Position numbers and translations under genes: made by a program. 30,355 nucleotides of DNA from a virus, in IMG/VR virus record IMGVR_UViG_3300038441_001850, positions 1 through 30,355 of that record, one strand, 5' to 3'. This document shows, in pieces, positions 2,150 to 10,389 of this stretch (position 1 is the stretch's first letter; each line of letters begins with the position of its first letter). The notes beneath the pieces were generated by a model. That model was not told the origin of the DNA and did no database searches. It was given only the letters and a program-made list of their open reading frames with translations.

Positions 2150-2266
2150 ATGCGTATTATCGGCTTTTGCGTCCGTTGCCACCGTGTCAAAGCGGTGCGC
2201 GTCACCCAGGTCCGACCGGGCACCCACCAACTCGGTGTGTGCCGTGATTGCGAGGCCAAGCGGTGA
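2150..2266 (+). CDS. 38-residue zinc-ribbon protein
   Basis: A tiny basic protein beginning MRIIGFCVRCHRVKAV and ending GVCRDCEAKR. The two CxxC pairs (FCVRCH and VCRDCE) are about 20 residues apart and would form one small zinc ribbon. The start has a GGAGAGGAAC ribosome site upstream, and the stop overlaps the next start as GTGA. Similar one-knuckle proteins are frequent in actinophage early regions and often bind nucleic acid or protein partners; the role here is unknown. Confidence 0.65.
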   Translation: MRIIGFCVRCHRVKAVRVTQVRPGTHQLGVCRDCEAKR

Positions 2267-2847
2267 GGGCGGTGGCGTTGGTGGGCTGCCTCGTGCTCGC
2301 CGTGTTCGTACCCCCGCCCCCGCAACCGACCGACACCGACGTCCCTCCCACCAGCCTCACTGGTGTGCCGGAGACAGCAGCTACGACGGCGGAAGTTGTA
2401 GGGCTCCCGTCCCCGGCGCCTCCCATGATGGCCGACGGCATCGACGTCGATCCAGCGCCAGCGATGGCGGCCCGCACCGTCCACGGCTGCGACGCCGCCG
2501 CCGAAGTGCTCTGCACGCAGAACCCGCCGCCGCGACCGGTGTGGGCGTACTGCGAACAGTGGCACGACATGGCCGAAGCCGTCGGCTGGCCCGAGAGCCA
2601 GGGGGGCGTCCTCAGCTACGTCCTGTACCGGGAGTCCAAGTGCCAGCCCGGTGCCACCGGCAGCCTCGTGTGCTCCAACGGCCGCTGTGGCCGGGCGCTG
2701 GGTCTCACGCAGCTGCTCGGGTGGTCGTGCCCGCCGAATGGGTGTTACGACCCATGGTCGAACCTCAGCCGGGCGTATCAGCTGTGGCGAGAGCAGGGAT
2801 GGCATCCATGGTGCCTGCGGGGCGATCCCGTGACAGGGAGCTGCTGA
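2263..2847 (+). CDS. Secreted lytic transglycosylase-like protein
   Basis: A 194-residue protein predicted to be exported and to cleave peptidoglycan. Residues 2-16 (RAVALVGCLVLAVFV) form a hydrophobic signal segment, followed by a Pro/Thr-rich linker to about residue 70. The C-terminal part looks like a small SLT/lysozyme-type domain: YRESKC with the likely catalytic Glu at residue 124, GRALGLTQLLGW, and a final NLSRAYQLW/GWHPW helix. Six cysteines around the domain suggest disulfides, consistent with action outside the membrane. The GTG start overlaps the previous stop. Being exported, it is not a canonical cytoplasmic endolysin; the amidase at 11089 fills that role. It could help DNA entry, wall remodelling or placement of the surface protein encoded next. 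Residue assignment is inferred from motif spacing. Confidence 0.65.
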   Translation: MRAVALVGCLVLAVFVPPPPQPTDTDVPPTSLTGVPETAATTAEVVGLPSPAPPMMADGIDVDPAPAMAARTVHGCDAAAEVLCTQNPPPRPVWAYCEQWHDMAEAVGWPESQGGVLSYVLYRESKCQPGATGSLVCSNGRCGRALGLTQLLGWSCPPNGCYDPWSNLSRAYQLWREQGWHPWCLRGDPVTGSC

Positions 2848-2993
2848 TGGGTCGGGCTCGGCCGACGTGGGAGGTGGCGATCATCAGCGCGGCCATGACG
2901 GCCGTGGTCCTGGTGATCGCCGTCTGCCTCGCCATCTTCACCATCGCCACCCTGCTCTTCGGGCTGGCGCAACTCCATGCCCACTGGCCCTGA
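2847..2993 (+). CDS. 48-residue single-span membrane protein
   Basis: It starts MGRARPTWE and continues with one long hydrophobic helix (about residues 11-40, AAMTAVVLVIAVCLAIFTIA), then a short LHAHWP tail. The ATG overlaps the stop of the transglycosylase-like gene, so the two are probably translated together. The basic N-terminus suggests it stays in the cytoplasm. It could anchor or regulate the secreted enzyme, or act as a small holin-like or signal-arrest protein; the sequence does not decide. Confidence 0.6.
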   Translation: MGRARPTWEVAIISAAMTAVVLVIAVCLAIFTIATLLFGLAQLHAHWP

Positions 2994-3023
2994 CAAGATT
3001 CCCTACCTGAAAGGAACCCGCTC

Positions 3024-3098
3024 ATGCCAGGACACCCGCCGAACTGGCCGGACGAGCAACGCCTCGTCGGGAGCGAAACCAAGGAGGAGCCGAAGTGA
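3024..3098 (+). CDS. 24-residue leader peptide before surface protein
   Basis: A 24-codon frame, MPGHPPNWPDEQRLVGSETK then EEPK, whose TGA overlaps the next gene's GTG. It is preceded by an exact copy of GAAAGGAACCCG (3009-3020), the same element that precedes two other genes here, which argues that ribosomes really start at this ATG. The peptide is hydrophilic and carries no domain. Its likely job is translational coupling: ribosomes finishing it would reach the GTG of the surface protein, with AAGGAGGAG inside its coding sequence serving as that gene's ribosome site. Confidence 0.5.
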   Translation: MPGHPPNWPDEQRLVGSETKEEPK

Positions 3099-4723
3099 GA
3101 AGGACCGCCGTCGTCACGGTGCTGGCCGTTGTGCTGGGCATCGTCTGCCTGTGGGTGGGGACGGCGCGAGCCAACCCTGTCCCGCCGGACTCCACCACCT
3201 CGACGGAGGCGTCCACGACGACTTTGACCGAGGCTCCTACCACCACCGCCGACACGACGCCGCACAAGGTGTTCGTGTGCAAGTACGTCGGCACGCCGGG
3301 CGTGGATGAGCGGCTGCAGACCGGGCAGAACCCGATCGACGTCGACATCCACTCGCTGATCGGCTTCGTCGCCATCGGAGCGTTCTTCCAGGACGCCCAG
3401 GGCCGCTCGGTGGCGATCGCCTTCGACACCGGCCAGGGGTCGCCGGGCGTCGGCGCCTGCCCGCAGGGCACCGGCACCACCACCACGACCGAGGCCTCGA
3501 CGACCTCCACGGAGGCATCGACGACGACGGAAGCGCCGACCACGACCACCGAGGCGTCGACGACCACCACCGGGGCCTCGACGACCACGACCACGGTGTG
3601 CCCGCCAACCGACAAGTGGTTCAACACCACGACCACGACGGCGTGCCCGCCGCCCAGCAGCAGCACGACGATGCCGGGCAGCAGCACGAGCAGCAGCTCC
3701 GTCCCGATTGGTCAGTTCTCGATGAACGTCCTGGCCATCTGCCCCGAAGTGTCCAAGGTCCCGACCATCGCCATCACCTTCCCGAATCGCCCGGAGCTGG
3801 ACGGCCTGACGGGCACGCTGACGTTCTCCACCGGCGGCTCGACGCCGCTCGTGTTCTCGTCGGGCGGGCAGGTCACGGTTCCGTATCCGGCTTCGGCGGG
3901 GTCCGGGCCAGTGACCCTGACCTACACGATCGGCGGTGAGAGCGCGACCCCGGTGACGCTCGACTTCCCCGCCAACTGCACGCCGACCACCACGACGCTG
4001 CCGGGGTCCACCTCGTCGGCACCCCCGAGCGGGGCCACGACGACCTCGCCGCTGGCACCGCTCCCGCCCGGCAGCACCCTGGCGCCGAGGGTCAACGACC
4101 TGAGCATCGGCTCCGCCGCCAGCGTCTGCTCGCGCGACGTACCCCTGGTGAACCTCACCTTCGGCAACCAGCCCGAGTTCAACGGCATCGTCGGCACCAT
4201 CGAGTTCGTGAGCCTCGACGGCACCCTGCACGAGACGCACGAGGTCACCTACGAGGCCAACTCCACGGTCACGCTGCTGTACCCGGGGGCCACCATCGAC
4301 CCGGTAACCGGCGAGGCCACCGACTGGCCGGGCTGGATGCTGAACAGCGACGGCTTCTGGGTGCTCGACCCGACCGACGCCGCCTACCGCGACGGCATCC
4401 GGGTCATCGCCACCCTGCCCAACGTGGGCGGTGAGGCGGGCTCGATCCCGGCCGCTGGCCCTGGTCAGGCTCGGCCGCTGTTCCAGCAGGCGGCTCCGCA
4501 CGTCGCCGAGACGACGATCACCTACCCGCCCGAGACGGCGGCCTGCAACAGCCCCGCAGGCCCGTTCATCCCCGGCCAGCCGACGCCGCACAGCCCGCAC
4601 CCGGGCGGCAGCATCCCGATCACCGGGTCGAACGCCGAGGGCCTGCTGCTGGGCGCAGCGTTGATCCTGGGCGGCGGGGGGGGCCTGATCCTCGTCACCC
4701 GGCGGCGGATGCTCGTGCGGTGA
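3095..4723 (+). CDS. Sortase-anchored cell-surface protein with Thr-rich linkers
   Basis: A 542-residue surface protein of host type. Order: signal peptide (1-26, cleavage after GTARA); Thr/Glu linker (33-55); a domain starting KVFVCKYVGTPGVDERLQTG (58-122) of a kind I recall from actinobacterial wall proteins; a long TTTTEAST linker (127-168); a beta-rich Ig-like domain (205-295); a second Thr/Ser/Pro linker; another beta-rich domain (330-480); then a sorting signal with IPITG (507-511), a hydrophobic stretch and RRRMLVR. Host sortase would be expected to join it to peptidoglycan. GTG is the start, overlapping the leader peptide stop, with AAGGAGGAG upstream. A phage carrying such a gene suggests a 'moron' altering the host surface, for example adhesion or blocking superinfection; that function is inference. 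A run of eight G residues (4676-4683) lies in the anchor segment. Confidence 0.8.
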   Translation: MRRTAVVTVLAVVLGIVCLWVGTARANPVPPDSTTSTEASTTTLTEAPTTTADTTPHKVFVCKYVGTPGVDERLQTGQNPIDVDIHSLIGFVAIGAFFQDAQGRSVAIAFDTGQGSPGVGACPQGTGTTTTTEASTTSTEASTTTEAPTTTTEASTTTTGASTTTTTVCPPTDKWFNTTTTTACPPPSSSTTMPGSSTSSSSVPIGQFSMNVLAICPEVSKVPTIAITFPNRPELDGLTGTLTFSTGGSTPLVFSSGGQVTVPYPASAGSGPVTLTYTIGGESATPVTLDFPANCTPTTTTLPGSTSSAPPSGATTTSPLAPLPPGSTLAPRVNDLSIGSAASVCSRDVPLVNLTFGNQPEFNGIVGTIEFVSLDGTLHETHEVTYEANSTVTLLYPGATIDPVTGEATDWPGWMLNSDGFWVLDPTDAAYRDGIRVIATLPNVGGEAGSIPAAGPGQARPLFQQAAPHVAETTITYPPETAACNSPAGPFIPGQPTPHSPHPGGSIPITGSNAEGLLLGAALILGGGGGLILVTRRRMLVR

Positions 4724-10019: not shown

Positions 10020-10190
10020 CCCGACCCGCTGGACCCGCGGTGGCCACGCCTCCTCGTGGCTGCCCGGGTCTGGCGGGCCACCGGGAACGAGCGGGCCATC
10101 GCCAACCTGCGGGCCGCTATCGACGCCTTCGACCCCGGCGTAGGCTCCGACCATGATGACCCTGGGGGAAATCGCCAGCGGCAACGCTGA
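9999..10190 (+). CDS. Possible small protein from a TTG start (63 aa)
   Basis: The frame reads MTSIVNSPDPLDPRWPRLLV, AARVWRATGNERAIANLRAA, IDAFDPGVGS, which looks like a real helical segment and fills an otherwise empty gap. The only long-enough start is TTG 9999, which lies in the 5' arm of the inverted repeat and has a G-rich run upstream. It overlaps the next gene by 38 nt. Either a hairpin-controlled gene or a chance frame; the protein-like middle is the main support. Confidence 0.4.
   Translation: MTSIVNSPDPLDPRWPRLLVAARVWRATGNERAIANLRAAIDAFDPGVGSDHDDPGGNRQRQR
10141..10152 (+). promoter_or_regulatory. TANNNT box with leaderless spacing before lysis genes
   Basis: TAGGCT (10141-10146) lies 6 nt before ATG 10153, the geometry of an actinobacterial leaderless promoter. 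The whole 15-mer TAGGCTCCGACCATG matches the one at 10916-10930 (TAGGGTCCGCCCGTG) at 12 of 15 positions. There is no good -35. Confidence 0.35.
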
Positions 10191-10389
10191 CACTGCGGAT
10201 GTCATGTTCCTGCTCGGAGCGATCGCCTTCGGACTGGCGATGCTCATTGCGTTGGTCCGAATCTTCACCCGCCCCCGAGTCCACGACCCGGCCGACCCTG
10301 GCCACCGGCCGATCACCCTGGCGCCGTGGGAGGCCGTGCTGGTCCCGCTGGGGCTCGGGCTGGTGGCGGTGGGGTGGCTCGTCCTGTGA
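10153..10389 (+). CDS. Two-helix membrane protein, holin candidate 1
   Basis: A 78-residue protein with helices at about 18-38 (VMFLLGAIAFGLAMLIALVR) and 58-78 (AVLVPLGLGLVAVGWLVL), joined by a charged loop (TRPRVHDPADPGHRP). Length and topology suit a class II holin, which would form the membrane lesion that frees the endolysin. It is the first of three consecutive small membrane proteins upstream of the amidase, so the true holin cannot be picked from sequence. ATG 10153 is followed directly by a second ATG. Confidence 0.55.
   Translation: MMTLGEIASGNADTADVMFLLGAIAFGLAMLIALVRIFTRPRVHDPADPGHRPITLAPWEAVLVPLGLGLVAVGWLVL

Follow-up and report, generated by a model that had tools for sequence, protein, structure and literature searches.

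Five plus-strand genes at 2150-4723 of a viral genome fragment raise the question of why a phage should encode a secreted, sortase-type surface protein. The fragment, referred to here as the window, is a whole linear IMG/VR record of 30,355 bases and is probably an incomplete piece of a genome. In its left part, the plus strand encodes an Erf-type annealing protein and a tRNA-Gly and, judged by eye, a helix-turn-helix protein, an amidase-like endolysin, and several small membrane proteins. In its right part, the minus strand encodes collagen-like tail fibers, minor tail proteins, and a 1,214-aa tape-measure-like protein, again by eye. An earlier note had interpreted the five genes as a module that opens the wall and installs a surface protein during infection or lysogeny, and all five of its ORFs were confirmed, as follows:

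2150..2266 (+): Cys4 zinc-ribbon-like peptide (ZnR), 38 aa, CxxC...CxxC (ORF reading; sister copy)
2263..2847 (+): exported lysozyme/SLT-like protein, 194 aa from GTG 2263 (weak SLT_3 match; invariant Glu124 and CPPNGC)
2847..2993 (+): one-span membrane peptide (TM), 48 aa (ORF; sister copy)
3024..3098 (+): leader ORF, 24 aa, with a stop codon overlapping the surface-gene start codon GTG (ORF reading)
3095..4723 (+): secreted sortase-type surface protein, 542 aa (sequence, anchor profiles, and model)

Neighboring genes overlap, stop with start, at 2263/2266, 2847, and 3095/3098, so that translational coupling is likely.

The view that the last gene encodes a secreted sortase-type protein held up well, as it has a Sec signal, an IPITG motif, a hydrophobic helix, and an RRR tail. 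Its parts are:

3095..3172 (+): Sec-type signal peptide with RR, a hydrophobic core, and ARA before NP (sequence; cleavage by eye)
3263..3457 (+): CKYVGTPG domain, common to actinobacterial and Saccharibacteria cellular surface proteins
3458..3706 (+): Thr/Glu/Ser-rich linker, predicted to be disordered (sequence; pLDDT mostly <50)
3707..3988 (+): first Ig/FnIII-like beta-sandwich (model; profile match)
4100..4567 (+): C-terminal Ig-like domain, DWPGWMLN..GFWVLDPTD, the conserved hallmark of the family (profile and model)
4613..4627 (+): IPITG sorting motif (sequence)
4634..4720 (+): rest of the sorting signal, a hydrophobic helix (modeled at residues 514-541) with the basic tail RRRMLVR

By inspection, the signal peptide shows RRTAVVTVLAVVLGIVCLWVGTARA directly before NP, and the C-terminus combines an xPxTG motif with a hydrophobic helix and a basic tail; IP.TG belongs to the sortase motifs used in PMC12617251. 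The window anchor scored just under the curated cut-offs (15.7 vs. 20 for Pfam Gram_pos_anchor and 14.2 vs. 15.9 for NCBIfam LPXTG_anchor), and relatives exceeded such cut-offs (L045, 21.9 and 22.6; L050, 18.5 with NCBIfam). In the AlphaFold2 model, residues ~211-290 and ~336-440 form confident sandwiches and residues 514-541 form a C-terminal helix, and a profile match at 3749-3895 (E 9e-9) identified the first sandwich as a diverged copy of the C-terminal Ig-like domain. VIA matches were to generic Ig-like folds (best Z 7.7, rmsd 2.9, 91 aligned; Z 7.4 to WxLIP), and the C-terminal domain had no credible match among the sequences of solved structures.

To what extent the genes form a unit could be judged from a sister phage, L002 (IMGVR_UViG_3300027743_000005, 60.7 kb), in which ZnR, the SLT-like gene, TM, and the surface gene follow in the same order. 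Identities between the two phages were 68% for ZnR (L002:6353-6469), 63% for the SLT-like protein, 60% for TM (L002:7309-7458), and 57% for the surface protein, and the corresponding dN/dS values of 0.20, 0.39, 0.43, and 0.52 indicate that the cassette genes are under purifying selection. Given their recurrence in L002, four of the five genes are judged to be real beyond chance. Three genes are inserted in the L002 cassette, two for proteins of 83 and 117 aa and one for a second one-span protein. L002 has no conserved counterpart of the 24-aa leader ORF, which may be a remnant; the 117-aa gene takes its place. The 117/118-aa gene (L002:7651-8004) also occurs at L013:4089-4445 (-) and L130:3211-3567 (-), and its family is putatively nucleoside deoxyribosyltransferase-like, by eye.

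The SLT-like protein has a hydrophobic N-terminal export segment and a catalytic-type Glu within YRES, i.e., in the (R)ES...GLxQ context of SLT/lysozyme-like lytic transglycosylases. Its SLT_3 (Pfam) score of 19.4 is below the cut-off of 27, as is the score of its L002 counterpart with the SLT model (19.3; cut-off 21.3), and Glu124, GLxQL, and CPPNGC are invariant in an alignment of four phages. This SLT family was found in three further phage lineages (the L013 group, L009, and the L130 group), whose records gave no match to the surface domain, and a search of 296 Actinomycetota genomes at E 1e-8, run without a positive control, returned no relatives. A secreted SLT lies within 8 kb of the surface gene in 4/22 loci vs. 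0/18 control loci, an excess that is suggestive only. This proximity, like the gene order and start coupling that the window shares with L002, would suit a conserved four-part module in which wall opening by the SLT-like protein allows the surface protein to be installed, as the earlier note proposed. However, we consider such a module unlikely, since most surface-family members have no such SLT neighbor, the SLT family occurs without them, and sortase substrates usually need no additional wall enzyme. In the 20 distinct fragments beyond the window and L002 that carry the surface family, this SLT protein is nearly always missing. Thus, the gene order stands in one sister phage but a general module is not supported; in the narrow sense, the four-gene module is limited to the window and L002. 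The finding worth following is the phage surface-protein family, not the cassette.

A search of IMG/VR with the C-terminal domain recovered 23 loci, and removal of duplicates left 21 distinct phage relatives, or 22 family members with the window. Every member with its start inside the record appears to be secreted, and a modular, Thr-rich build is shared by nearly all. The GC content of the loci ranges from 41 to 73%, and gene contexts vary widely: the surface gene lies downstream of tape-measure and tail genes in L003 and L036, after tail fibers in L004, L041, and L042, upstream of terminase in L034, between replication genes in L040, and among replication and recombination genes in the window. 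A small membrane protein at window 10153-10389 is holin-like by eye, and it resembles, also by eye, proteins near the surface gene in L004 (6902-7093), L006 (3501-3689), and L041 (10037-10231).

Sorting signals were found at the C-terminus of 13/22 members (twelve by a strict script, plus L035) and in only 1 of 670 other ORFs of the phage loci, itself a surface protein. The statement that sortase-anchored proteins are rare in phages therefore needs qualifying, as such an anchor is present in 13 distinct phage fragments. An N-terminal lipobox occurs in seven phage members, six of which also have a sorting signal. Eight of the nine members lacking a sorting signal stop exactly one residue past an LPxT-like motif (at L004:8426, L038:8423, L041:8444, L043:5374, L044:8447, L047:8229, L036:8486, and L005:797), with the ends LPPTR (four times), LPATR, LPITE, IPATP, and LPPAL; the ninth, L048, ends in VPTE. 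Among the other 670 ORFs, one has an LPxT-plus-one end, namely L044:11434-13461, another secreted surface protein whose L047 homolog ends in LPATG and a membrane helix. We rejected, as a general explanation, a programmed frameshift that would append a membrane anchor behind LPPTR: a short downstream membrane ORF in the -1 frame is present in L004, L038, and L048, but there is no such ORF in L041, L043, or L044. Since anchor types are interspersed on the family tree and some members carry a lipobox, export is kept while the anchor changes repeatedly. Other secreted proteins were seen at these loci. L044 and L047 share two further adjacent secreted proteins (L044:10314-13461 and L047:3239-6580; 53% and 40% identity) with N/Q-rich repeats that are curlin-like by eye, one copy ending in LPATG and a helix. 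L045:7594-8169 (-) encodes a lipoprotein with an Rpf-like segment (VNWDAVAQCES) and is convergent with the surface gene.

The protein modules have cellular counterparts. Among named genomes, the CKYVGTPG domain was found at 28 loci, almost all of them from Actinomycetota or Saccharibacteria; the proteins often bear sorting signals, and one is fused to a sortase-like domain. By profile search, the C-terminal domain was present in 7/20 of the CKYVGTPG-bearing genomes and in 9/396 Actinomycetota genomes, and most of the cellular proteins with a visible end finish in LPxTG-like signals. These homologs led us to drop the notion of a phage-only C-terminal domain; a scan of genome contigs with that domain alone found nothing. 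A tree was built from 18 cellular and 22 phage copies. One branch (support 73/99) separates the phage copies from the cellular ones, and the phage/cellular split needs one change vs. 13.5 in shuffles. This topology fits, rather than proves, a scenario in which an actinobacterial surface protein was captured once and then spread among phages. Cellular origin of the modules would also be expected of passive host-derived cargo (a moron) that brings no gain to the phage. We regard this as very improbable, given retention in 22 distinct fragments, purifying selection, and repeated change of the anchor.

Taken together, the Sec signal, the IPITG motif with helix and RRR tail, the sorting signals in 13/22 members, and the LPxTG-like cellular relatives make surface display of the 3095-4723 product very likely. 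On the other side stand a window anchor under curated cut-offs and nine members that end without a sorting signal. The sequences further suggest that carrier phages repeatedly place this protein on infected cells or secrete it from them. The earlier note had also offered lysogeny as a setting. However, tyrosine integrases were found in 2/21 carrier records, a serine recombinase in none of the 21, and neither in the 60.7-kb sister L002. Lysogenic conversion is therefore unlikely as a general role, with the caution that the carrier records are fragments, so that missing integrases are weak evidence. Since most carriers have no integrase, action within the lytic cycle is the most likely timing.

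In the mechanism that we propose, the captured and rebuilt host-type protein would be exported by Sec and then attached to the wall by host sortase through its C-terminal signal, displaying two Ig-like domains on a Thr-rich stalk at the infected actinobacterial cell. The co-expressed SLT-like protein would probably trim peptidoglycan locally. By covering surface receptors or competing for them, the displayed protein would keep other phages from adsorbing and would likewise prevent adsorption of the phage's progeny to debris. We infer the wall attachment, the lytic timing, and the exclusion role, and display combined with a role against superinfection or re-adsorption in lytic infection is a reading that we hold tentatively, somewhat short of probable. 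Ig-like folds are generic (VIA Z 7-8) and equally suited to adhesion, in which the domains would bind infected cells to one another, to other cells, or to matrix and bring new hosts to emerging virions. Biofilm-associated and WxL-type surface proteins are among the matches to the Ig/FnIII-like folds, the cellular relatives of the family are surface proteins, and SasX, a phage-borne LPXTG protein, has been linked to colonization (PMC7285666). However, phage tail proteins and receptors match these folds as well, and the soluble members (8 or 9 of 22) are less well explained by adhesion, which we rate as possible but clearly less probable. Proximity to tail-fiber, holin-like, or amidase genes in several phages might instead point to a lysis or late-phase accessory, or to a virion-associated protein, yet Sec signals, lipoboxes, and sorting signals are not virion features and the window gene sits among replication and recombination genes, so that this reading appears improbable. 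For a surface protein of lytic infection, we favor exclusion or progeny protection over infected-cell adhesion.

Some carriers also encode a protein with a sortase fold. A weak PF04203 match was present in 4/26 carrier or related records, and a wider search yielded eight distinct phage versions of this small exported protein:

L002:1174-1692: ~6.3 kb upstream of the surface gene
L034:2696-3082: directly after the surface gene, overlapping its stop
L042:8528-8911: directly after the surface gene, overlapping its stop
L049:4199-4633 (-): sortase-fold gene
L107:3309-3797: sortase-fold gene
L108:3941-4339: two genes before an amidase
L113:3884-4294: directly after an SLT-like lipoprotein
L112:3866-4354: with a Cys one residue before the Ser described below (LQCS)

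For the L002 protein, all 50 best VIA rows were sortases (Z 12-14). The phage proteins share the fold of the class E sortase SrtE1 (PDB 5cuw; profile E 1e-10; VIA Z 13.4, rmsd 2.0, 110 aligned) but, unlike SrtE1, all eight have Ser at the catalytic Cys position and do not conserve the Arg, while the His is kept. In L002, LQTS aligns with LTTC of cellular sortases and there is no Cys at the end of strand beta-7; since the catalytic Cys is absent, we do not class this protein among active sortases. Ser is likewise found in the cellular relatives L114 and L115. The surface proteins of both L034 and L042 use the motif LPPAG. No sortase was found in the window, but the position matching the L002 gene would lie beyond the window's left end. 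By tblastn against INPHARED (50,697 phages), neither the sortase-like protein nor the surface protein, its relative L046, or the window SLT-like protein had a match, and no report of phage-encoded sortases was found in the literature searched. It is conceivable, though doubtful, that the family amounts to a widespread system by which actinophages dress the host, in which one captured sortase-type protein has diversified and is delivered by a wall anchor, a lipid anchor, both, or release after LPxT, and in which the Cys-to-Ser sortase-fold protein of some carriers handles or blocks the sorting of tails. These Ser-for-Cys proteins pose a clear biochemical question.

Previously known phage-encoded wall-anchored proteins come from a few staphylococcal prophages. 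A family with host-derived modules in 22 environmental fragments, most of them not from obviously temperate phages, would show that actinobacterial phages routinely rework the host surface. Since actinobacterial surface receptors are poorly known, the family is of value as a concrete gene candidate for superinfection exclusion or infected-cell adhesion. Its closest cellular likeness is to sortase-anchored surface proteins of actinobacteria (Demequina, Cellulomonas; L083, L095, and L098), which have the same CKYVGTPG/WPGW domains and LPxTG-like tails, whereas the phage copies stand apart on the tree (73/99) and differ in their Thr-rich stalks and the variety of their anchors. Among phages, the T5 lipoprotein Llp is a superinfection-exclusion surface protein. 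Proteins of this type are likewise exported and expressed by the phage on its host, and part of the present family has a lipid anchor; the likeness is one of description, exclusion being only proposed here. Prophage superinfection-exclusion proteins block receptor binding, and GamR, a wall-anchored LPXTG protein, serves as a phage receptor (PMC9863714). A parallel in design is offered by the staphylococcal surface proteins SasX/SesI, encoded by phiSPbeta-like prophages (PMC7285666), which are also made by the host cell and equipped with a signal peptide and an LPXTG anchor. However, SasX/SesI belong to staphylococcal temperate phages, whereas the present family is of actinobacterial type, combines CKYV with Ig-like domains, occurs mostly in records lacking an integrase, and has often swapped or lost its anchor.
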